In this document: in pieces, positions 3,281 through 21,269 of the stretch
How the letters are laid out: the number at the start of each line of letters is the position of its first letter
Position numbering within the stretch: position 1 is the stretch's first letter
DNA from: Desulfosporosinus sp. Sb-LF
Lineage (GTDB): Bacteria; Bacillota; Desulfitobacteriia; Desulfitobacteriales; Desulfitobacteriaceae
Direction: 5' to 3'
Assembly: GCF_004766055.1 (NCBI RefSeq)
Contig: NZ_SPQR01000017.1
Span: forward strand, 1 to 61,305
Length of the DNA: 61,305 nucleotides
Position numbers and translations under genes: made by a program
The notes under the pieces: generated by a model
The model's database searches: none
Seen by the model: only the letters and a program-made list of their open reading frames with translations
What the model was told of the DNA's origin: nothing

Positions 3281-4792
3281 CAGCACTTTAGCCTCTACCA
3301 CTGTCAACCCATTGATTTCGCTTGTATTTCTACCGATTTCAAAAGTGTATCAAATTCGGAGTTTTTAAATGCTTTTGTCAGACCTTTCATTCTGCTAAAA
3401 TCAGAGGGAGAGAGAGGATGAAATGCGAAAAATTACTTTGTAAAATTAGTGAGATATATTAAGAATGTTTATCATCTCGAACGTGGTTTAAATAAACTGA
3501 CTGACGGAAGAGTTAACCCAACTTATAGCACAGGTCAAGTAATTCTGCCTGTGCTTTTTGGTTTTTTGCTTAGAGTAAAAAGCTTTAATGAACTAAGTTT
3601 GATGATCAAAAATCATGAGTTTAGTCAACTATTTCCCCGAGGAACAAAGCTGCCGCAGATTGATGCCATCAGAGATACACTTAAAGTCATGGATATCAAC
3701 GGACTAAAACAAATCAATCATCACATAATAAAAACGGCAGTTGAGAATAAGACTTTTGAAAACGGAACCATAGACGGATATATGGTGGTTGCAATCGATG
3801 GAACAAAATTCTTCGGGAGCAATAGGAAAAGCTGTTCAGAATGCTTGAAAAATACCAAACGGTAAAACGACTCATTGTTTCCATAGTGGCGCTGTCATGT
3901 CAACGGTAGGGATGGGTCCCAAATTGGTTATTGGCTTTGAGATGTACAAGCCCGGACAAGATCCCATTTCAAAGGATGAAGGGGAGTTGAGCGTAGGGAA
4001 AAGGCTGATTTCAAGCGTCGTGAAGAGTCATAGAAAACTGATTGATGTTGTAGTTTATGATGCCCTGGCCTGTAATTCCATCTGGATTAACCACTGCAAA
4101 AATTTAGGTATTGATGCAATTGTCCGAGCAAAAAACAATAACAATAAGAGTTTGCGTTTAGCAAAAAAGACGGTCAATAAGACGGAGGCTGTTGAGGTTT
4201 GGGTAGATGAAAAAGGATTTGAGAAAGTAGAAGTTTACCAGTCAACGTTCACAATGGACAACGTGGAGCAACCGTTGAATTTTGTAAAATTTGCAATTAA
4301 ACATAAGAAAAAGCAGCGCACACAGATTATGATCGTAACGACTTGTATGGATATGGCGCTGAAAACATCGTTTAAAATAATAAGAGCACGCTGGGATATT
4401 GAGAACTCGATTTTCAATAACTTGAAACGTGAATGTGGCTTAGAGCATTGCTTCGTACATGGAAAGAATGCCGTAGAAGCTGTGCTATATTTGATCTTTA
4501 TCGCATCAAATATTATGCAAATATTTCTAGTTAGACGACTGAGAAACCATTTTACAACTCAACGAGAAATGGTAAGGCTTTTATTAAAAGGGCTATATCT
4601 GATGAAGTATAAAGCTGAATTGGTTTTTAGCAGCTCATAGAAATTAGCCAATTTAATTAGGATCTATAATTTTGGGGTAGGGGAAGGTGTATTCTTTTTT
4701 AAAGAGAATTAGACAAATGTAGAGGACAATTCGAAAAGTCATATAAATATAGGATTTGATACGGAAGAATTTTTACAGAGGCTAAATTGCTG
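3281..4792 (+). mobile_element. Nearly complete DDE insertion sequence, copy 3 (1512 bp)
   Basis: Bounded by inverted repeats CAGCACTTTAGCCTCT (3281-3296) and AGAGGCTAAATTGCTG (4777-4792), which match at 15 of 16 positions. One transposase gene fills the interior, followed by the non-coding tail shared with copies 1 and 2. I find no direct target duplication beside the ends (left flank GAATAG, right flank GGTAGG). It inserted exactly after the stop codon of the 2459-3280 gene. Confidence 0.85.
3418..4640 (+). pseudogene. DDE transposase, frameshifted (copy 3)
   Basis: Three frames together give one transposase of about 400 residues. An ATG at 3418 after GAGAGAGG starts a frame that is lost near 3450. 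The frame open from 3449 carries the N-terminal part and the first catalytic Asp (VVAIDGTKFFGS) and stops at 3865. The rest resumes one base out of frame at 3861 (GKTTHCFHSGAVMS...) and runs to 4640, with a second Asp in VVYDALACNSIW and the Glu in RWDIENSIFNNLK. With at least one and probably two frameshifts the copy should not make a full protein. I considered programmed frameshifting, but the site near 3860 has no slippery heptamer with a stimulatory structure that I can see. Confidence 0.8.
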
Positions 4793-11959: not shown

Positions 11960-12014
11960 TAAAACGACCCTTAGTCAAAGATATGCTCTAAGAAAATCAG
12001 TTATCCTTCGAGTT

Positions 12015-12092
12015 TTAAATTCTCCCTCACAATAAAGGAGAGCAGATGGAAGTTCATCCACCAGCTCTCCTTTATTGTGAGGGAGAATTTAA
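12015..12092. terminator. Bidirectional terminator between lexA and ddl
   Basis: A perfect 29-bp inverted repeat (12015-12043 with 12064-12092) whose arms contain CTCCCTCACAATAAAGGAG; the 20-base loop can also partly pair. AAATT/TTT runs at the outer edges act as weak T-tracts on both strands. The repeat overlaps the ddl stop codon. Confidence 0.8.
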
Positions 12093-13192
12093 TTACATGA
12101 AATTTTACAGGTTTGCTTATCTTTAAAACGTTCTAAGCCTAATGATATTAACTGGTCGATTAACTCTGAATAAGAAATTCCTGTAGCCTCCCAAAGCTTA
12201 GGGTACATTGAAATTTCAGTGAATCCAGGTAAAGTATTAATCTCATTTAAATATATTTCGTTTCGTGAGGTAACAAAGAAATCGACCCGACTTAGTCCAC
12301 ACGCTTCAACAGCGCGGAAGGCTTCGAGAGCCATTTCCTGCATCCGTGTTGCCACGGATTCATTGACTGGAGCAGGAATCAATAAGCTAGAGCCAATATT
12401 AGAATACTTAGCTTCGTAAGAGTAAAACTCATGTGCAGGTTTTACTTCACCTGGAACTGAAGCTTTTGGTGTATCATTTCCCAAAACAGCGACTTCAATT
12501 TCTCGTCCATTAATAGATTCCTCTACGACGATTTTACGATCATATAATGCCGCAATATCTAAAGCATTTTTTAATTCCTCACGGTCGTGTGCTTTAGAAA
12601 TGCCTACACTTGACCCTAAATTGGCTGGTTTTACAAAACAAGGATAGCCTATATTAGCTTCAATTTCATTAAGGCAATCTTCTGGCCGATCGATAAAGTC
12701 GACGCGCAAAAGAGTTACATAGCGTGCTAAAGGTAAATTTTTCTCTCGGAAGACCGCTTTCATACGATCTTTATCCATCCCTAGTGAGGATCCTAATACT
12801 CCAGAGCCTACATATGGGACATTGGCCATCTCCAGTAAGCCCTGAAGAGTTCCATCTTCTCCGTAGGGTCCATGAAGCACTGGGAAGATAAGATCAAAAT
12901 GACCATCATTGGGAAGTACGCTACCATCTAAAGCCATAAAACGCGGGTGTGTAAGGTCAAGGACCAAAGTAACTTGGCGAGATTGATCTACCGAAGAAAA
13001 TCCTTCTTTTATCGCATCCTCTGGGCGAACACCCCAAAACCATTGGCCTTGTTTATTAATTCCTACCGTCTCTACACTGTAGCGGTTACGATCAATAGCC
13101 TTGAAAATAGACTGGGCTGAATTTAAAGAAACCTCATGCTCACCTGAGCGACCGCCAAATAAAAGAACCACTCGAAGTTTGTGATCTTCCAA
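12089..13192 (-). CDS. ddl: D-alanine--D-alanine ligase
   Basis: ATP-grasp enzyme joining two D-Ala for peptidoglycan precursors in the cytoplasm. About 367 residues if started at TTG 13192 (LEDHKLRVVLLFGGRSGEHE), which follows GAGGGTGGGG; an upstream in-frame start at 13249 has no ribosome site. Visible motifs: GGRSGEHEVSL (N-terminal substrate loop), HGPYGEDGTLQG, the ATP-grasp KPANLGSSVGI and EVKPAHEFYSYEAKY, and the metal-ligand EINTLPGFTE. The Tyr of EFYSYEAKY suggests the D-Ala-D-Ala rather than D-Ala-D-lactate type, though this is inference. Convergent with lexA. Confidence 0.93.
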   Translation of the reverse strand: MEDHKLRVVLLFGGRSGEHEVSLNSAQSIFKAIDRNRYSVETVGINKQGQWFWGVRPEDAIKEGFSSVDQSRQVTLVLDLTHPRFMALDGSVLPNDGHFDLIFPVLHGPYGEDGTLQGLLEMANVPYVGSGVLGSSLGMDKDRMKAVFREKNLPLARYVTLLRVDFIDRPEDCLNEIEANIGYPCFVKPANLGSSVGISKAHDREELKNALDIAALYDRKIVVEESINGREIEVAVLGNDTPKASVPGEVKPAHEFYSYEAKYSNIGSSLLIPAPVNESVATRMQEMALEAFRAVEACGLSRVDFFVTSRNEIYLNEINTLPGFTEISMYPKLWEATGISYSELIDQLISLGLERFKDKQTCKISCN

Positions 13193-13331
13193 AATGCCCC
13201 ACCCTCTCAATAAGTAATTGAAATTAAGTAATTGAAATTTAAAAACCATGTTATGTTATGCGAAGTCCCTTAATGGAGATACGTCTGTCACTATTAGTAG
13301 TATATGCCTGAAAAAGAAAAAAGGCTCCCAC

Positions 13332-13877
13332 CTATCGAGCAAGAGCACCTATTTGATTAAGAGGCCAATAGCGAAAGAGAGTTCGCCCAGTGATGTTTTC
13401 TATTGGTAAAAATCCCCATTCTCTTGAGTCAGCACTATTATTACGATTGTCTCCCATAACAAATACCGAGTTATTAGGAACGACGATCGGGCCAAAGTCA
13501 TTTTTCGACTGATCTACTACATAGGGTTCATAGAGTGGTTGACCATTCACATAAGTTTTGTGATTGCGTATCTCAATTTTATCACCTGGTAAGCCGACAA
13601 CCCGTTTTATAAAGTCCTCCGTCGAATGGGCACTCGGTGGCGGATGGAAGACAATGATATCTCCAGGACTAATGTGGTCGAAATGTTTGAAAAATAACTT
13701 ATCCACTATGACACGGTCTTCGAGTTGAATGGTCGGAAGCATCGAACCAGTGGGTATTTTACGGGCCTCAATAACATACGTTCGCAATACCCAAGAAAGC
13801 GCAAATGCAATTAGAACTATTTCTATTAATTCTAGGACGAATCGCATTGTACTTTTCGGTGACTCAGAATCTTTCAT
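13332..13877 (-). CDS. lepB: Signal peptidase I
   Basis: 181 residues, typical of Gram-positive type I enzymes (SipS-like). One N-terminal membrane helix (VLELIEIVLIAFALSWVL) is followed by the external Ser/Lys catalytic domain: Ser45 in PTGSMLPTI, Lys91 in FIKRVVGLPGD, and the GDNRNNSADSR box. It removes signal peptides from secreted proteins. ATG start after a GGGGTGG-like site. It stands between ddl and the PLP-enzyme gene without clear operon partners. Confidence 0.94.
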   Translation of the reverse strand: MKDSESPKSTMRFVLELIEIVLIAFALSWVLRTYVIEARKIPTGSMLPTIQLEDRVIVDKLFFKHFDHISPGDIIVFHPPPSAHSTEDFIKRVVGLPGDKIEIRNHKTYVNGQPLYEPYVVDQSKNDFGPIVVPNNSVFVMGDNRNNSADSREWGFLPIENITGRTLFRYWPLNQIGALAR

Positions 13878-13987
13878 AATCCACCCCTTTCTAGCCTTTA
13901 TAATACCACAGTACGGTGAATCTTTGAAAGGAAGACTGTGATTAGCATTTAAATAAATTCAAGAAGTTCCAAACACAGATATATATT

Positions 13988-15253
13988 TTAGCTTAGAAGT
14001 CCCTGCTTCCATAAATTCAGTGCTGCTAAAATGTTACCTATCTTCACATACATATGCGAAATGCCACCTTGCTGATAGACAATATAGGGTTCCCGAAGAG
14101 GCCCATCTGCTGAAAATTCGCTGGTTGCTCCTTGAATAAATGTTCCACCAGACATGATGACCTCGTCTTCATATCCTGGCATTCCAGACGGTATGGGTAA
14201 AACATGAGAATCGATTGGCGAGCCTTTTTGAAGTCCCTGGCAGAACGCTATCATCTTTTCCCTCGATCCCAGTTTTACGGCTTGAATTAGGTCTGTTCTG
14301 GGTGCCTCGGGTTCAGGATGTACTTCGAATCCTAACGCTCGCCAAAATGCTGCGGAAAATACCGCACCTTTTATGGATTCCGAAACAGTTAGCGGGCTAA
14401 AGAATAACCCCTGATAAAAAAGCCGCTGCCATTCCAAGGTTGCTCCCACATGCTCGCCGATTCCTGGTGCTGTCAAGCGCTGGGCTGCAAGTTTAACCAA
14501 ATCAGAGCGACCCGCAACATATCCGCCAGTTGGAGCTAAACTTCCCCCCAGATTTTTTATTAACGATCCGGCCATCAAATCCGCGCCGATATCACCCGGT
14601 TCCAGCGTTTCGACCAATTCTCCGTAGCAATTATCTACGAAAATGATTAATTGAGGATAGTTTGTTCGTGTAAAATCTACGAGTTCCTTAAGCTGGGATA
14701 TTGTTAGAGAGTTTCGCCAAGCATATCCACATGAACGCTGAACAATCAGCATTCGAGTTTTATTTGTTATTGTCTCGCTCAAAAGAGCATATTGTAGTTT
14801 ACCCTGGGAATCCAGAGGAATGGCATCATAGGATATGCCAAAATCCATAAGGCTCCCTTGCCCTTTTCCCCGTAGTCCGATAACTTCATCCAGCGTATCG
14901 TAAGGGGTCCCGCTGACAGAAATAACATGATCTCCTGGTCTTAAAACACCAAATAACGCAGCAGCGATAGCGTGGGTACCTGAAACAAACTGACCACGCA
15001 CAAGGGCGGCTTGGGAACCCAAAATTCGGGCAACCACGCGGTCGAGGACTTCACGACCTGAATCACCCAGGCCATAACCCGTTGTTCCCTGTAAATGATA
15101 TGAGGATACTCGTTCTTCCTGAAAGGCATTTAAGACCTTTTCGTGGTTTCGAGTTGCTGTTTTTTGCAATGCAGGAAGTCGTTGTAAAAGTGTTTCTTCT
15201 GCTTTGTCTATCGCTTCGCGAATTAAACTCGGCCATTCGGGATTTGAATACAA
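13988..15253 (-). CDS. PLP-dependent methionine gamma-lyase/YnbB family protein
   Basis: 421 residues of the cystathionine-beta-lyase-like family once labelled aluminium-resistance proteins (YnbB in Bacillus). Visible: YGLGDSGREVLDRV at the N-terminus, a cofactor-stacking region VSGTPYDTLDEVIG, the aspartate DNCYGE that contacts the pyridine N, and the PLP lysine in SLIKNLGGSLAPTGGYVAG. TTG start with AAGGAGG nine bases upstream. It follows hflX by 39 bases, the same hflX-ynbB order as in Bacillus. The physiological substrate is not settled. Confidence 0.85.
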   Translation of the reverse strand: MYSNPEWPSLIREAIDKAEETLLQRLPALQKTATRNHEKVLNAFQEERVSSYHLQGTTGYGLGDSGREVLDRVVARILGSQAALVRGQFVSGTHAIAAALFGVLRPGDHVISVSGTPYDTLDEVIGLRGKGQGSLMDFGISYDAIPLDSQGKLQYALLSETITNKTRMLIVQRSCGYAWRNSLTISQLKELVDFTRTNYPQLIIFVDNCYGELVETLEPGDIGADLMAGSLIKNLGGSLAPTGGYVAGRSDLVKLAAQRLTAPGIGEHVGATLEWQRLFYQGLFFSPLTVSESIKGAVFSAAFWRALGFEVHPEPEAPRTDLIQAVKLGSREKMIAFCQGLQKGSPIDSHVLPIPSGMPGYEDEVIMSGGTFIQGATSEFSADGPLREPYIVYQQGGISHMYVKIGNILAALNLWKQGLLS

Positions 15254-15292
15254 AAAAATTTCCTCCTTACAAAGGGAACATCACAAATAGAG

Positions 15293-16906
15293 TTAAGTCA
15301 CTAAGGAGCTCATTAGTTTCCATACTGGTTTTAAAGAATCCCCGCGTTTGAGAGACAACTGAATTGGATGAGGAAGCTGTTGAGCTAGGATGTTTAGATC
15401 GACTTCATCCATGACTAGATCAACCTTATTAAGCAAAGTAATGGTGGGTTTATCATTACTTTTTAATTGCGTTAGCACTTCGTGGACGGTCTCCGCATGT
15501 TGAAATGCTTGTGGATGGCTCGCATCAACAATATGTAATAAAACATCCGCTTGTTGGACTTCTTCTAACGTCGCTAGAAATGCCCGAAGTAATTGAGTGG
15601 GTAATTTTCGTATAAAACCAACAGTGTCGCTCAACAGCACTTCCAAGGAAGAGTTAACTCTAATTGAACGGACAATAGGATCTAATGTAGCAAATAATTT
15701 ATTTTCACCAATTGGTATGTCGGATTGACTTCCAGCTTGTTCCATCGCTGCTTTCATAAAAGTTGTTTTACCAGCATTCGTATAACCCACTAAAGCTATT
15801 GTAGGTAGGCCACTTTTCGTTCTTTGACGACGTTGAACCTCGCGATGCTGTAAGACAAGTTTCAATTCTTTCTCCAGCTGGTTAATGCGGTCCCTCATTC
15901 GCCGCCGGTCAAGCTCCAGTTTCGTTTCTCCGGGACCACGTGATCCAACTCCTCCACCCAAGCGGGAAAGAGCTTGTCCCTGACCTGTCAAGTAAGGTAA
16001 CAGATGTTTGAGCTGTGCTAATTCGACTTGAAGCTTACCTTCGCGTGACTGAGCCCGCTGTGCGAATATATCTAGGATCAAGCCAGTACGATCTAATACT
16101 TTGACTCCGGTTTCAGTTTCTAAAGTCCGTAATTGTGTTGTAGATAGCTCATCATCACAAATTACGACATTGGCTTCAGTTTCTTGTAAACGATGACTTA
16201 GTTCTTCGAGTTTGCCACTTCCTAGGTAGCTACGGGACTGACCATAACGACGTAGCTGGGCAAGTTGTCCGACTACGTCCACACCTGCCGAGCGAGCTAA
16301 TTCTCTCAGTTCCGTCAAATCTTCATTACTTCCTTGGTCACTATCTTCCAGTGCGATTAGGAATGCACGTTCCTTGCCCGATGCAGTCTTTGTGATTGTC
16401 AAACTCAAACCCTGCGAAACGTTTGAAAGCGAATCACGATAGTCAAACGTTTTCCAATGATCGGAATCCAAATTAACAATAAAAGGGTCACTTTCTCCGG
16501 AACGATAGGCTATTTGAAGACCAGTGAAATTTCCATCACGAACTCCGATAGAAGCCATGCTTTCGAGTTCAAGTGAAGCCAATGCACTCAGATCTAAAGG
16601 GCTTAAACGAAATTCCCCATTAGGGTGCGTATGAATACAACGCAAATGCTTCCCTTGGGACCTTCCCTTAATTGGCGGAAGGGCTACAGTCGCATGACGA
16701 CCAACTGAGGCTGCTATAAGTGTGCCAGGACGAGTTATATATACGGCAATCTCTCGATTCCAAAGTTCCGTAAGGCGCATTAGCTCTGCAAGAATCTCCT
16801 CATGGATAAGTTCTGAACGTTCAGTATTTATCTCTGAAAGATTTTTAAGTTCTTGTATCTGGCTTGCACGAATCCCAGACAAATCTCCCGAAATATCTAT
16901 GTCCAT
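15293..16906 (-). CDS. hflX: GTPase HflX with N-terminal JAMM-like domain
   Basis: Ribosome-associated GTPase that splits stalled or hibernating ribosomes. 537 residues from ATG 16906 (AAGAGG seven bases upstream; the longer frame to 16951 has no site). Residues about 180-365 form the HflX N-domain with GGGVGSRGPGETKLE; the G-domain follows with G1 GYTNAGKTT (374-382), DTVGFIRKLP, and NKVD. The extra first 160 residues carry H92-T-H94-P, then seven residues to S102-P-L-D105, an exact H-x-H-x7-S-x2-D JAMM metalloprotease pattern. HflX is usually about 420-430 residues in other bacteria. It lies 54 bases downstream of spoVK on the same strand. Confidence 0.92.
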   Translation of the reverse strand: MDIDISGDLSGIRASQIQELKNLSEINTERSELIHEEILAELMRLTELWNREIAVYITRPGTLIAASVGRHATVALPPIKGRSQGKHLRCIHTHPNGEFRLSPLDLSALASLELESMASIGVRDGNFTGLQIAYRSGESDPFIVNLDSDHWKTFDYRDSLSNVSQGLSLTITKTASGKERAFLIALEDSDQGSNEDLTELRELARSAGVDVVGQLAQLRRYGQSRSYLGSGKLEELSHRLQETEANVVICDDELSTTQLRTLETETGVKVLDRTGLILDIFAQRAQSREGKLQVELAQLKHLLPYLTGQGQALSRLGGGVGSRGPGETKLELDRRRMRDRINQLEKELKLVLQHREVQRRQRTKSGLPTIALVGYTNAGKTTFMKAAMEQAGSQSDIPIGENKLFATLDPIVRSIRVNSSLEVLLSDTVGFIRKLPTQLLRAFLATLEEVQQADVLLHIVDASHPQAFQHAETVHEVLTQLKSNDKPTITLLNKVDLVMDEVDLNILAQQLPHPIQLSLKRGDSLKPVWKLMSSLVT

Positions 16907-16960
16907 ACCATAACCTCTTATTCTAAGATTTCCTTTTATTAAAATAACCAAAAAATAAGG

Positions 16961-17929
16961 TTATAAATCTTCCAGATTGATATCTACAGGTAAAATCTGT
17001 ATTAGTTCTTCACGACTAGAGCTTGACTTTTGAAACAGCCGAACTGCCTGTCTTCGCACAGTTTTTTCTACAAGGTTACGGACAAGCCGAGCATTTCCAG
17101 CATAAGGTTGGCTATTAAGCAAACTTTGTAGGTGAGAGCGAAGGGCCTCCATCCCCTCTGGAGTTAGCTCATATTGTCGAGACTTCAGCATTGAATTCCC
17201 GATAGACAACAATTCATCAAGCGTGTAATCTGGAAAGTCAATATGTATAGGGAAACGGGAGCGAAGCCCAGGATTGGATTGCAAGAACCATTCCATTTCT
17301 TGACGATATCCAGCTAAGATGAGCACGAGATTCTCCTTATTGTCCTCCATCGCCTTAACTAAGGCATCTATAGCTTCTTTGCCAAAATCCTTCTCTCCTC
17401 CACGGGCTAACGAATAGGCTTCATCAATAAACAGAACCCCACCTAACGCCTTTTTTAGTTGTTCTCTTGTCTTCTGTGCGGTATGTCCTATATACTCGCC
17501 GACAAGATCTGCTCGCTCACATTCAATCACATGACCTTTCTGAAGAACTCCCAATTCTTTAAACAGTCGCCCGACTAAACGTGCCACTGTTGTTTTACCG
17601 GTTCCTGGGTTCCCCCGAAAGATCATATGAAGAACCATTGGCTCTGCTATTAGTTTTTCTCGAGTACGTCGCTTTTGAATTTCTACAAAAGCAAGCAATT
17701 CGCGGATGAGGAGTTTAACAGTTACTAATCCTATGAATGCTTCTAACTCATCAAGGATTTCCGCAAGTTTATCTTTGTCTTTTTCAAGGGGGGAAGAATT
17801 ACTCTTGCGGACTCGCCCTATCCCCGTCGGTTCTTGCGTAGTAATAATATGTGCTGGCTCATTTGGTAAGGGAGATTGAATGACCGGAGGTAGGTGATTG
17901 TCCGGTCTAAATGTTACACGTATTGTCAT
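16961..17929 (-). CDS. spoVK: Stage V sporulation protein K-like AAA ATPase
   Basis: About 322 residues of the CbxX/CfxQ/SpoVK AAA family. After an about 60-residue variable N-terminus come LDELEAFIGL.TVK, Walker A FRGNPGTGKTTVAR, the pore-loop region ADLVGEYIGHTAQKT, Walker B GGVLFIDEAYSL, sensor VLILAGY, and arginine finger region NPGLRSRFPIHIDFPDY. In Bacillus spoVK is needed for spore maturation and lies next to ynbA (hflX), as here. Start ATG 17929 with GGGAGG upstream; a GTG 12 bases earlier is possible. The spoVK role is inferred from family and order. Confidence 0.85.
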   Translation of the reverse strand: MTIRVTFRPDNHLPPVIQSPLPNEPAHIITTQEPTGIGRVRKSNSSPLEKDKDKLAEILDELEAFIGLVTVKLLIRELLAFVEIQKRRTREKLIAEPMVLHMIFRGNPGTGKTTVARLVGRLFKELGVLQKGHVIECERADLVGEYIGHTAQKTREQLKKALGGVLFIDEAYSLARGGEKDFGKEAIDALVKAMEDNKENLVLILAGYRQEMEWFLQSNPGLRSRFPIHIDFPDYTLDELLSIGNSMLKSRQYELTPEGMEALRSHLQSLLNSQPYAGNARLVRNLVEKTVRRQAVRLFQKSSSSREELIQILPVDINLEDL

Positions 17930-18001
17930 AAGTACAGGCACCTCCCATCCTTACTACTATACGCAAGTAAGGACAAAAGGTGTCCTAGAAAGCGGTTGTT
18001 A

Positions 18002-19825
18002 TTATTTCCCTGTTAAGGTCTTTGAATAACGTACGCGTGACTGGTGATCTAAGAATTTCTTACGGAGACGGACACTTTTTGGGGTAATTTCGACCAACTC
18101 ATCGTCATTAATGAATTCTAGTGATTGCTCCAAGGAAAACTCTCTTGGCTTGTCAAGGCGTAACGCTTCATCGGCCGAACTAGTACGCATATTGGTGAGC
18201 TGCTTTTTCTTGCAAACGTTAACTTCAATATCTTGCTCACGCTTATTCTCTCCAACAATCATACCTGCATATACATGAAGACCTGGGTCGACAAACAAGT
18301 TACCTCGTTCTTGAGCAGAATAAAGGCCGTAAGCATTTGTTTCTCCCTCTTCAAAGGCTATGAGTGCTCCACGATTTCGGCCGGGAATATCCCCTTTATA
18401 AGGTTCATAACCTAGGAAAACGTGACTCATTAATCCTTCACCGCGTGTTTGGGATAAGAAATCCCCACGGAAGCCGATGAGGCCCCGAGCCGGAATTTTA
18501 AATTCCAGGCGAAGTTGTGTTTCGGAAAGGTTTGTCATATTAGACATTTCCGCTTTGCGCTTTCCGAGAAGTTCCATGATGGCTCCTAGTGCATTTTCAT
18601 GAAGATCACAGGTCAAAAACTCGATCGGTTCGCATTTAACGCCGTCAATCGTTTTATAAATAACTTCGGGTTTAGAAACTTGAAGCTCAAACCCTTCCCT
18701 ACGCATGTTTTCAATCAAAATAGATAGGTGAAGTTCCCCTCTACCCGATACTTGAAAACAATCGGCCGAGTCTGTTTCTTCTACCCTTAGGCTGACATTG
18801 GTTTCGACTTCTTTCCAAAGACGCTCGCGTATCTTACGAGAAGTTACGAAATGCCCCTCGCGTCCGGCAAAGGGACTATTATTAACCATAAAATTCATGG
18901 ACAAGGTCGGCTCATCCACTTCAATGGTTGGTAATGCCTCAGGAGATAGTGCACAAGCTACAGTCTCTCCGATATTAGCACTGCTTAATCCTGTAAGTGC
19001 AACAATTTCTCCGGCCGATGCTTCGAGAACGTCTTGACGTTTCAGTCCGTCGTAAATCATTACTTTCCCTACTTTAGTTCGTTCAATACTTTCATCACGC
19101 TTGATTAAGGTAACATTTTCGTTCGTATGAATCGTCCCTCGAACAATTCGACCAACTACGATTTTGCCAACATAATCATCATAGTCCAGAGTGGTAACGA
19201 GCATCTGGAAAGGCGCTTCTAGGTCAACGACAGGGGCAGGAATGTGCTCCAAGATTACAGAGAAGAGTGGCACTAAAGAGTCTGCTAGTGTGTCTGCTGA
19301 GAGCCCAGCAGTTCCTGCACGCGCGGAAGCATATACAACTGGAAAGTCCAACTGATCATCTTCTGCTCCAAGTTCGATAAAAAGATCTAAGACTTCATCT
19401 ACCACTTCAGCTGGTCGAGCATCGGGGCGGTCAATCTTATTAATTACGACAATAGGAACAAGCTTAAGTTCTAAGGCTTTCCGCAGTACAAAACGTGTTT
19501 GAGGCATCGGCCCCTCAAAAGAATCGACAATAAGGAGTACCCCATTTACCATTTGTAAGACACGTTCGACTTCACCACCAAAGTCAGCATGCCCTGGGGT
19601 GTCAATAATATTAATTTTTGTCCCTTGCCATTGAACGGCGGTGTTTTTTGATAGAATGGTAATTCCACGTTCACGCTCTAAATCATTGGAATCCATAACG
19701 CGTTCAACAACTTGTTGGTTAGATCGGAAAGTTCCACTCTGTTTTAACATGGCATCAACAAGCGTTGTTTTTCCATGATCGACGTGAGCGATAATTGCAA
19801 TGTTTCTTAAATTTCGAGTTTCCAT
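18002..19825 (-). CDS. typA: Ribosome-associated translational GTPase TypA/BipA
   Basis: 607 residues, the usual length. G-motifs: G1 [10 protein letters not shown] (14-23), [29 protein letters not shown]. These are followed by domain II, the EF-G-like domains III and V, and the TypA-specific C-terminal domain ([29 protein letters not shown]). It binds 70S ribosomes and helps assembly and growth at low temperature or stress. It sits between hfq and spoVK, separated from hfq by a terminator, so it probably has its own promoter. Confidence 0.96.
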
Positions 19826-19906
19826 AGTTGGGTTGAGTTCCTTTCTTTCACTAAGATAAAAGCATATAGTTTTAAGATATCATAGTTAAGTTATGAATTC
19901 AAGTAA

Positions 19907-19943
19907 AAGAACTAAGTCCGATTAAATATCGTACTTAGTTCTA
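19907..19943 (-). terminator. Terminator downstream of hfq
   Basis: AGAACTAAGT (19909-19918) pairs with ACTTAGTTCT (19933-19942); read on the minus strand the stem is followed by a TTTT run. It probably ends the mutS-to-hfq transcript before typA. Confidence 0.72.
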
Positions 19944-20047
19944 CTCTAGAAAACACTGTTTTAACTTATATTCCCAAATAACATCGATGGTAGTAGGAAT
20001 ATCTTTCTGAGAACTATCATTTTTTTGGTGTTATTGACTGGACTTGT

Positions 20048-20293
20048 TTAATTATTCGACTCTGCACTCAGGGCCACTAAGTTAATTGGACGTATCGGCA
20101 TAACAGTTGAAATTGCATGTTTATAAACCATTTGCTGTCTTCCTTCAAATTCAATGACTACCGTAAAATTATCAAACCCCTTGATAAGTCCCTTAAGTTG
20201 AAACCCGTTAACCAAATAAATAGTCACAGGTAGGTTTTCCTTGCGAACCTGATTCAAAAAGGTATCTTGTAAATTGATGGGCGATTTATTCAT
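20048..20293 (-). CDS. hfq: RNA chaperone Hfq
   Basis: 81 residues, the length of Gram-positive Hfq. Sm1 motif [21 protein letters not shown], then [10 protein letters not shown], and the Sm2 signature [12 protein letters not shown] (YKHA). The hexamer binds small RNAs and mRNAs. The tail after PIRPIN is short, as in Firmicutes. ATG start after GATGGAGGG. It is the last gene of the mutS-mutL-miaA-hfq run, 34 bases after miaA, and is followed by a terminator. Confidence 0.97.
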
Positions 20294-20327
20294 AAATTTC
20301 CCTCCATCACCTTATTTTTCTTCTTTA

Positions 20328-21269
20328 CTATTCTACACGAGTTTGGTAGGCTCTGCAAGTCTCGATAATCGAATTGAGAATTTCGTATGGTTCGGTCTCG
20401 ATATCGTACCATCTTACCCGAGGATCACGTCGAAACCAGGTCAGTTGACGTTTTGCGAAATGACGTGTATCCCTTTGGAGCAAACGTAACATTTCTGGTT
20501 GAGTTATAAGTCCTTTAATGTACCAGTGAGCATGGCGATAGCCAATGCTTTGTAACGGCTTTAAGGTCGAATCATAACCACTCTTTAAAAGTGACAGTGT
20601 TTCTTCTATTAAACCCTGGGAAAGCATCGCTACGCAGCGTTGATTAATCCGTTCGTATATTACTTCACGTGGAGCTGTAAGCCCAATATAGACGATAGAT
20701 GGATCAAGCGGCTGATATTCGTTATCTCGAAACTGACGCTGGCTGGATAATGTTTCACCCGTTAATTCCAATACTTCAAGGGCCCTGATAATCCGAAAAA
20801 CATCATTAGGATGTAATTGACGAGCTGTTTCAGGGTCAAGTTTTTGCAGTTCCTCATGTAGTGATAAATTGCCGTATAAGACAACATATTCCTTCCATTT
20901 GGAACGGATTTCCTCAGAGCCATGCTGGGAGAAGTCATAAGGATCAAGTAAAGACCGAATATATAATCCTGTTCCGCCAACAACAATTGGAAAATGCCCA
21001 CGACTCCTAATCTCCCTGATTAATGAAGTCGCCGTTAACTTAAACTGAGCTGCGGTAAAAGGCTCTGCGGGATCCAAGAAATCAATACAGTGATGTGGAA
21101 CAAGTTTAAGTTCTTCGGCAGTTGGCTTTGCCGATCCAATATCAAGTTTCTGATAGACTTGAACGGAATCTCCTGAAATGATTTCTCCCCCGATTTCTCG
21201 TGCCAATTCTATCCCCAAGGAAGACTTGCCAACGCCTGTTGGACCGATAATTATTATCAGTGGATACAC
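20328..21269 (-). CDS. miaA: tRNA dimethylallyltransferase
   Basis: Adds the dimethylallyl group to A37 of tRNAs reading U-starting codons; the MiaB encoded at 30288-31619 then methylthiolates it. About 313 residues. P-loop GPTGVGKSSLG, DSVQVYQKLDIGSAKP, HHCIDFLDP, VVGGTGLYIRSLL, and R-Q-x-T-W-F-R-R at the C-terminus (RQLTWFRRDPRV). I prefer GTG 21269 (eight bases after GGAGG) to the ATG at 21284, which overlaps the upstream stop as TAATG but has no ribosome site. Translational coupling with the methyltransferase gene is likely either way. Confidence 0.95.
   Translation of the reverse strand: MYPLIIIIGPTGVGKSSLGIELAREIGGEIISGDSVQVYQKLDIGSAKPTAEELKLVPHHCIDFLDPAEPFTAAQFKLTATSLIREIRSRGHFPIVVGGTGLYIRSLLDPYDFSQHGSEEIRSKWKEYVVLYGNLSLHEELQKLDPETARQLHPNDVFRIIRALEVLELTGETLSSQRQFRDNEYQPLDPSIVYIGLTAPREVIYERINQRCVAMLSQGLIEETLSLLKSGYDSTLKPLQSIGYRHAHWYIKGLITQPEMLRLLQRDTRHFAKRQLTWFRRDPRVRWYDIETEPYEILNSIIETCRAYQTRVE

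Follow-up and report, generated by a model that had tools for sequence, protein, structure and literature searches.

The window examined here is a stretch of 61,305 nucleotides from Desulfosporosinus sp. Sb-LF (contig NZ_SPQR01000017.1), and its gene of interest is an hflX at 15293..16906, on the minus strand like its parts and the two neighbours described below, that encodes a 537-residue protein composed of a predicted N-terminal JAMM/MPN module and an HflX GTPase. The ATG occupies 16904-16906, the protein begins MDIDISGDLSG, and direct reading places AGAGG, which resembles a ribosome-binding site, 7 nucleotides ahead of the start (16914..16918).

The HflX part (residues 180-533; 15308..16369) scores 418.4 bits with TIGR03156 (GTP_HflX; cut-off 216.75), and because the match covers profile positions 1-348 of 351 it is complete for this model, as the initial annotation had judged. 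Three Pfam domains match it as well (GTP-bdg_N, GTP-bdg_M and, for the G domain, MMR_HSR1), and it contains the G-domain motifs GYTNAGKT, DTVGF and NKVD. In having the whole of GTP-bdg_N, GTP-bdg_M and the G domain above the curated cut-off, the protein is like known HflX such as that of E. coli and YnbA of B. subtilis. It differs from them in some 180 extra N-terminal residues that form the JAMM-like module, before a linker at about residues 165-179 (16370..16414) where AlphaFold2 confidence is low around 170-177. The C-terminal extension that brings many relatives to 600-620 residues is missing in this genus; here, and in most other family f1 sequences read, HflX stops about 70 residues short of the end that most JAMM-bearing relatives have.

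The N-terminal domain and its predicted metal site

Residues 92-105 (16592..16633) read HTHPNGEFRLSPLD, an exact HxHx7SxxD with H92, H94, S102 and D105 where the initial annotation had placed them, and alignments to AMSH-LP and RadC support its reading as a predicted zinc site. Could the motif have arisen by chance in an unrelated N-terminal extension? As such an origin would allow, the protein has no match to any Pfam or NCBIfam model ahead of residue 178, even at E 10. However, the motif occurs once in 503 other stop-to-stop open reading frames of at least 300 residues, that is once per 219,260 residues, so about 0.001 would be expected per 194-residue domain. With conservation, fold and profile evidence also contrary to it, I reject chance as practically negligible.

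Conservation was followed outward from the genus. In the window and 14 Desulfosporosinus-type relatives (67-77% identity in the domain; one is titled only as a Bacillota metagenome-assembled genome) all predicted catalytic positions are invariant, and a fifteenth long hflX locus outside that alignment, L011, also has the motif. Among 26 sequences with identity down to 26%, the invariant columns are E52, R59, G61, G69, V74, R89, C90, H92, T93, H94, P95, L101, S102, D105, L109 and M117; the complete predicted JAMM set is among them. In 62 non-redundant domains taken without conditioning on the motif, H92 is present in 56 and H94, S102 and D105 in 57 each. The upstream glutamate whose conservation the initial annotation had proposed to check corresponds to E52 (16751..16753), found in 58 of these domains. 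It stands 40 residues ahead of H92, and from the model I infer that it occupies the catalytic position. E52 is present in all 56 non-redundant rows with an intact motif, whose pairwise identity has a median of 31% and a minimum of 20%, and is lost in four of the six rows without one; as the intact class is defined by the motif, only E52 is an independent test in this comparison, and the hypergeometric p calculated for it, being biased, is left out of account.

The fold agrees with the motif. Residues 1-194, modelled with AlphaFold2 from a 26-row alignment, reach a predicted local distance difference test score (pLDDT) of 84.9 and a predicted template modelling score (pTM) of 0.78, with strands at 52-57, 63-69, 89-94, 116-123, 126-134 and 142-146 and helices at 36-49 and 103-111. 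In this model HxH closes strand 89-94 and the aspartate lies near the start of helix 103-111. The MPN/JAMM core takes up residues ~30-161 (16424..16819), most VIA aligned ranges falling inside 29-161, and is preceded by residues 1-29 (16820..16906), an extra strand (4-7) and helix (14-25) in which G7 and G11 are conserved. The full-length model (pLDDT 79.3, pTM 0.57) has the same N-terminal elements; its confidence is low at 170-176, and for that reason it does not determine the orientation of the JAMM domain relative to the HflX part.

VIA comparison with the PDB puts Pyrococcus furiosus JAMM1 first (Z 8.5 and 8.4, the former over 113 residues), followed by AMSH (7.2), BubCD (7.1), RadC (7.1) and a Caldiarchaeum Rpn11 homologue (7.0). 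Judged by title or protein name, nearly all of the best 50 VIA rows belong to the MPN/JAMM group, EMC and Prp8 being counted in; 2kks was not identified. Foldseek agrees with VIA, a few of its best 50 rows being unrelated by title. By sequence, the domain profile matches AMSH-type JAMM proteases best among PDB entries (E 0.01; the alignment runs through HTHP and LSSVD), and Prp8 is also among the best-matching solved sequences. Fifteen of the 26 members match Pfam Prok-JAB (PF14464) at E up to 10, the best at 2.8e-4. The MPN/JAMM-like fold that the initial annotation suggested is thus recovered by AlphaFold2, VIA and Foldseek; that residues 1-194 have it is close to certain on these predictions, and it is very likely, from model and residues together, that the domain carries a metal-binding catalytic site.

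In its predicted MPN fold, its HxHx7SxxD and its upstream glutamate the domain is like the JAMM/MPN+ metalloproteases (PfJAMM1, AMSH/AMSH-LP, Rpn11, CSN5, Cap3 and the bacterial deconjugases of ubiquitin-like proteins). It is unlike them in being fused to a ribosome-splitting GTPase, in being too divergent for the Pfam JAB models and in having no known ubiquitin-like partner.

The sole Prok-JAB place listed in the same genome is RadC. In one rival reading the domain acts instead on RNA or a tRNA ester, as has been proposed for the RadC clade of JAB domains. The motif region resembles RadC HNHPSGDPTPSQED, the two sharing the JAMM fold class and a similar HxHPxGxxxxSxxD stretch, and hhalign aligns the domain to this RadC at E 7.1e-4. 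The fusion partner, HflX, handles ribosomes, and RadC-clade JAB domains have been proposed as nucleases on contextual grounds (PMC3482391). Seven of the 26 relatives match the RadC JAB model PF04002 weakly (best E 0.028). However, the hhalign probability is 26%, the nuclease activity of RadC is itself a proposal, the best solved sequence matches are AMSH-type peptidases and Prp8, and most of the top folds are JAMM1, AMSH and Rpn11-type peptidases, though RadC is among them. RadC is moreover a separate gene (L001:1426-2199, contig C9) whose N-terminal part is left unmatched by hhalign. I regard an RNA substrate as quite improbable.

Distribution, history and loss of the site

At class level the domain is present in 59 of 82 genomes. 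Of the remaining 23, tests for HflX covered 22 (G067 was left out, and several of those tested are incomplete): eight have an HflX with a short frame (390-496 residues), and 14, including G001, G002, G041, G079 and G080, gave no HflX match at E 1e-60. Across the phylum sample the domain was found in at least 73 of 398 genomes, a lower bound because no more than seven candidates per genome were scored for the domain and a divergent copy in G227 was missed; HflX at E 1e-70 was found in at least 305 of the 398, with no more than five candidates scored. The suggestion that such extensions may be common in Clostridia is supported for Clostridia-like relatives, though the phylum-wide distribution is patchy. 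A second genome sample, centred elsewhere, turned out to be the same phylum again (19 of 101).

All 73 phylum loci are fused to an HflX GTPase in one frame (L134 runs into a contig end), and no free-standing copy was seen among the best candidates per genome in the class and phylum searches. Together with the predicted fold and the residue conservation, this distribution upholds the JAMM identity and the fusion to HflX that the initial annotation had put forward. The named carriers are Desulfosporosinus species, one Bacillota metagenome-assembled genome and, outside Bacillota, Fusobacterium: two records, of F. animalis and F. vincentii, hold the fusion with an intact motif, the F. animalis protein being annotated only as 'GTPase HflX'. 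Ilyobacter, of the same family, has a short HflX in the record read. Both Fusobacterium fusions lie on records labelled plasmids (L226 and L227; 219 kb and 2.1 Mb), of which the 2.1-Mb record is more likely a chromosome. Phages gave no match to the N-terminal domain; the single hit among viral contigs (L225) is an HflX that retains the motif, and by eye the genes around it seem bacterial.

A tree was built from the GTPase parts of 95 HflX proteins, of which 56 carry the motif, 33 lack the domain and six have a dead site. On this tree, whose root is unknown, presence of the domain requires seven changes and the dead state two. As 28 of the 92 inner branches are open and the deep ones weak, a single old gain followed by many losses and several separate gains are indistinguishable.

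HxHx7SxxD is intact in 60 of the 73 phylum loci and lost in 13, which belong to families f42 (five loci), f94 (one) and f86 (seven). Loss is confined to families distant from the window's genus, in which all long hflX frames read keep the motif; the loss in close relatives that the initial annotation had named as speaking against its reading was not seen there. In f42, H92 has become tyrosine and E52 is usually changed too, f94 retains one of the five aligned site residues, and f86 has lost both histidines and retains E52 (in its non-redundant example also S102 and D105). A 74th copy, the one in G227 that the phylum search missed, was found by its long frame and is likewise fused with the motif lost; G440, also read for a long HflX frame, has no JAMM-like domain. 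These domain-bearing, motif-less HflX (families f42, f94, f86 and f85; L143-L146, L148-L154, L231-L233) are likely, judging by their residues, MPN- pseudoenzyme versions.

The main rival of an enzyme is a metal-dependent scaffold: the MPN domain would serve for docking or metal sensing, positioning HflX on the ribosome or a partner, with the metal needed for stability or zinc sensing. MPN- scaffolds are common in eukaryotic complexes. The 13 loci and the 74th copy keep the domain without the site, so a part of its role may be non-catalytic, and G61, G69, R59, R89 and G7 are kept in 60-62 of the 62 non-redundant domains, at least as well as the catalytic residues. In mycobacteria, the extension ahead of HflX has a structural effect on 23S rRNA (PMC12493154). 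A scaffold leaves unexplained, however, why E52 accompanies every intact motif and is mostly lost without it, within classes that the motif defines. I consider it unlikely, while giving it more weight than any other alternative. A full catalytic set that persists across deep divergence, while some lineages lose several of its residues, is the pattern expected of an enzyme that can at times be dispensed with.

Two further rearrangements of hflX were seen in passing. In L229 (G076:C1:2538900-2542200) the JAMM part is split by about 1.8 kb holding a reverse-transcriptase-like open reading frame and two Rfam group II intron matches (RF02001, RF01998). In family f52, HflX carries a C-terminal tRNA-dihydrouridine synthase (L174:1423-3642, Pfam Dus at E 1.4e-97; L178, L180 and L183 judged by eye).

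Gene neighbourhood and candidate substrates

In the window, hflX is preceded by a SpoVK-like AAA ATPase (16961..17941; Pfam AAA and AAA_lid_6) and followed by a YnbB-like protein (13988..15253; Pfam Met_gamma_lyase). I compared 44 neighbourhoods (30 with intact fusions, three with dead sites and 11 with short hflX genes). The order miaA-hfq-spoVK-hflX-ynbB, with intervening genes possible, surrounds nine of the 30 intact fusions and five of the 11 short hflX genes, and lexA follows it in nine and four cases, respectively. Because this order is common to both, the fusion occupies the ordinary place of hflX wherever the order survives, and in this part of the genomes it is like short HflX. Gene clusters c10, c12, c13 and c20 lie no more than five genes away from intact fusions in 6, 5, 5 and 4 of the 30 cases, respectively, and are absent from that range in the 14 other neighbourhoods; by eye they are membrane-protein-like, signal-peptidase-like, regulator-like and PHP-like, respectively. 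Cluster c1 merges YnbB with a D-Ala-D-Ala-ligase-like protein through single linkage.

Window positions 12000-20500 hold no Rfam match. Elsewhere in the window, the open reading frames at 709-1095 and 3897-4640 have nearly identical C-terminal sequences, transposase-like by eye, and the shorter resembles a truncated copy.

Genes for possible substrates were surveyed in 50 chosen genomes: 30 with an intact fusion, three with a dead site, 14 with short HflX and three without an HflX match. Prp processes L27, and a stand-in for Prp was one candidate role. It is not supported: Prp is present in 22 of 30 intact-fusion, three of three dead-site and 10 of 14 short-HflX genomes, so L27 processing does not look taken over. 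The HPF C-terminal domain (29 of 30 intact-fusion genomes, 49 of 50 overall) and RqcH (30 of 30 and 50 of 50) are compatible with hibernation-factor and Ala-tailed substrates, respectively, and are not discriminating.

Another proposal is that the domain strips a ubiquitin-like modifier of the ThiS/MoaD type from ribosome-bound proteins, for which HvJAMM1 can be adduced (PMC4443979). A ThiS/MoaD match of any kind was found in 22 of 30 intact-fusion and 13 of 14 short-HflX genomes; of the former, eight have no match and two have one only inside an open reading frame of more than 700 residues. A small ThiS-like open reading frame is thus present in 20 of 30 intact-fusion genomes against 11 of 14 with short HflX, so ThiS/MoaD is not a general substrate. 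Nor did a ThiS-like gene recur beside hflX, where neighbours were clustered with no ThiS search among them. Such a tag fits poorly with these gene counts, and I hold the proposal to be very improbable; any single named substrate is itself improbable.

A putative peptidase on a ribosome-splitting GTPase

The reading I favour, with reasonable confidence, is that this is the ordinary hflX of its lineage with an authentic N-terminal MPN+ (JAMM) metallopeptidase-like domain on a flexible linker, acting near the ribosome. By its residues and model the domain is probably an active metallopeptidase, and I infer zinc to be its metal and a peptide or isopeptide bond its target; a peptidase or isopeptidase activity as such is likely. 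Whether the substrate lies on or near the ribosome is evenly balanced.

Several observations weigh against this reading. Of 999 VIA chains only three have a Z of at least 8, below which, by the tool's own warning, a match can reflect a common arrangement. The Foldseek scores are modest: the best E is 7.6e-4 (CSN5), and the best 50 rows have template modelling scores of 0.13-0.38 by query length and no more than 0.47 by target length. The window domain itself has no Pfam match at E 10 and hence none over the PF14464 cut-off, and none of the 26 members is shown to exceed the JAB cut-off (the score is known for the first only). The equal or better conservation of non-catalytic residues and the loss of the motif in 13 loci, both noted above, tell the same way. 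HflX stands without the domain in many relatives (of 398 genomes, at least 305 have HflX and at least 73 the domain), and no partner gene lies beside most intact fusions in the 44 neighbourhoods, the best specific cluster reaching six of 30.

How might a peptidase on HflX work? HflX binds 50S in the intersubunit space, and that of S. aureus dissociates 70S and 100S ribosomes, as a minor, heat-induced dissociation factor (PMC7196661). The N-terminal extension of mycobacterial HflX touches uL16 and H38 and reaches H69-71 (PMC12493154), which would put an N-terminal module close to the subunit interface. That extension is likewise an N-terminal addition to HflX, although it is a short peptide of 39-58 residues acting on 23S rRNA helices and the present one a folded domain of 180 residues (PMC12493154). 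By analogy, a JAMM domain on a linker would sweep the interface side of 50S. HflX, splitting ribosomes from the 50S intersubunit face, would bring it to stalled or hibernating ribosomes, where it would cut a ribosome-bound protein around the time of splitting; what it might cut includes the linker of a hibernation factor, ribosomal proteins that bear a modification and nascent chains with a tail. The processing of a ribosome-linked peptide or tag, which the initial annotation suggested for the fusion, is plausible on this analogy.

Both parts of the protein are of known kinds, and the conserved combination of JAMM and HflX appears undescribed among the papers listed by searches of 5.39 million open-access articles, though subscription literature could still hold a description. 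The nearest statement is one clause of a review, which mentions extended HflX from several Clostridium and Paenibacilli as well; the available part of its account of HflX extensions does not name a JAMM module (PMC12493154). Nor is HflX mentioned in the portion seen of a survey from 2006 that covers ubiquitin-like and JAB proteins of prokaryotes (PMC1779556).

In the usual picture of bacterial ribosome rescue, the ribosome is first split, and release, tagging or degradation come afterwards as steps of their own. A more specific and tentative proposal, which I would sooner doubt than assert, is a protease delivered to the ribosome by a GTPase, in which the splitting of a stalled or hibernating ribosome and the cutting of a ribosome-bound protein or tail by the JAMM domain would be one reaction. 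This rescue step, undescribed in the literature found, would be ancient in Bacillota and Fusobacteriota, with repeated loss or inactivation. A conserved metallopeptidase inside a splitting GTPase would mean that a protein on the ribosome is processed around splitting, pointing to a ribosome-linked substrate. For many Clostridia-like bacteria and for Fusobacterium, the extension ahead of HflX thereby gains a predicted identity, and E52 and H92 are the residues through which this identity can be probed.
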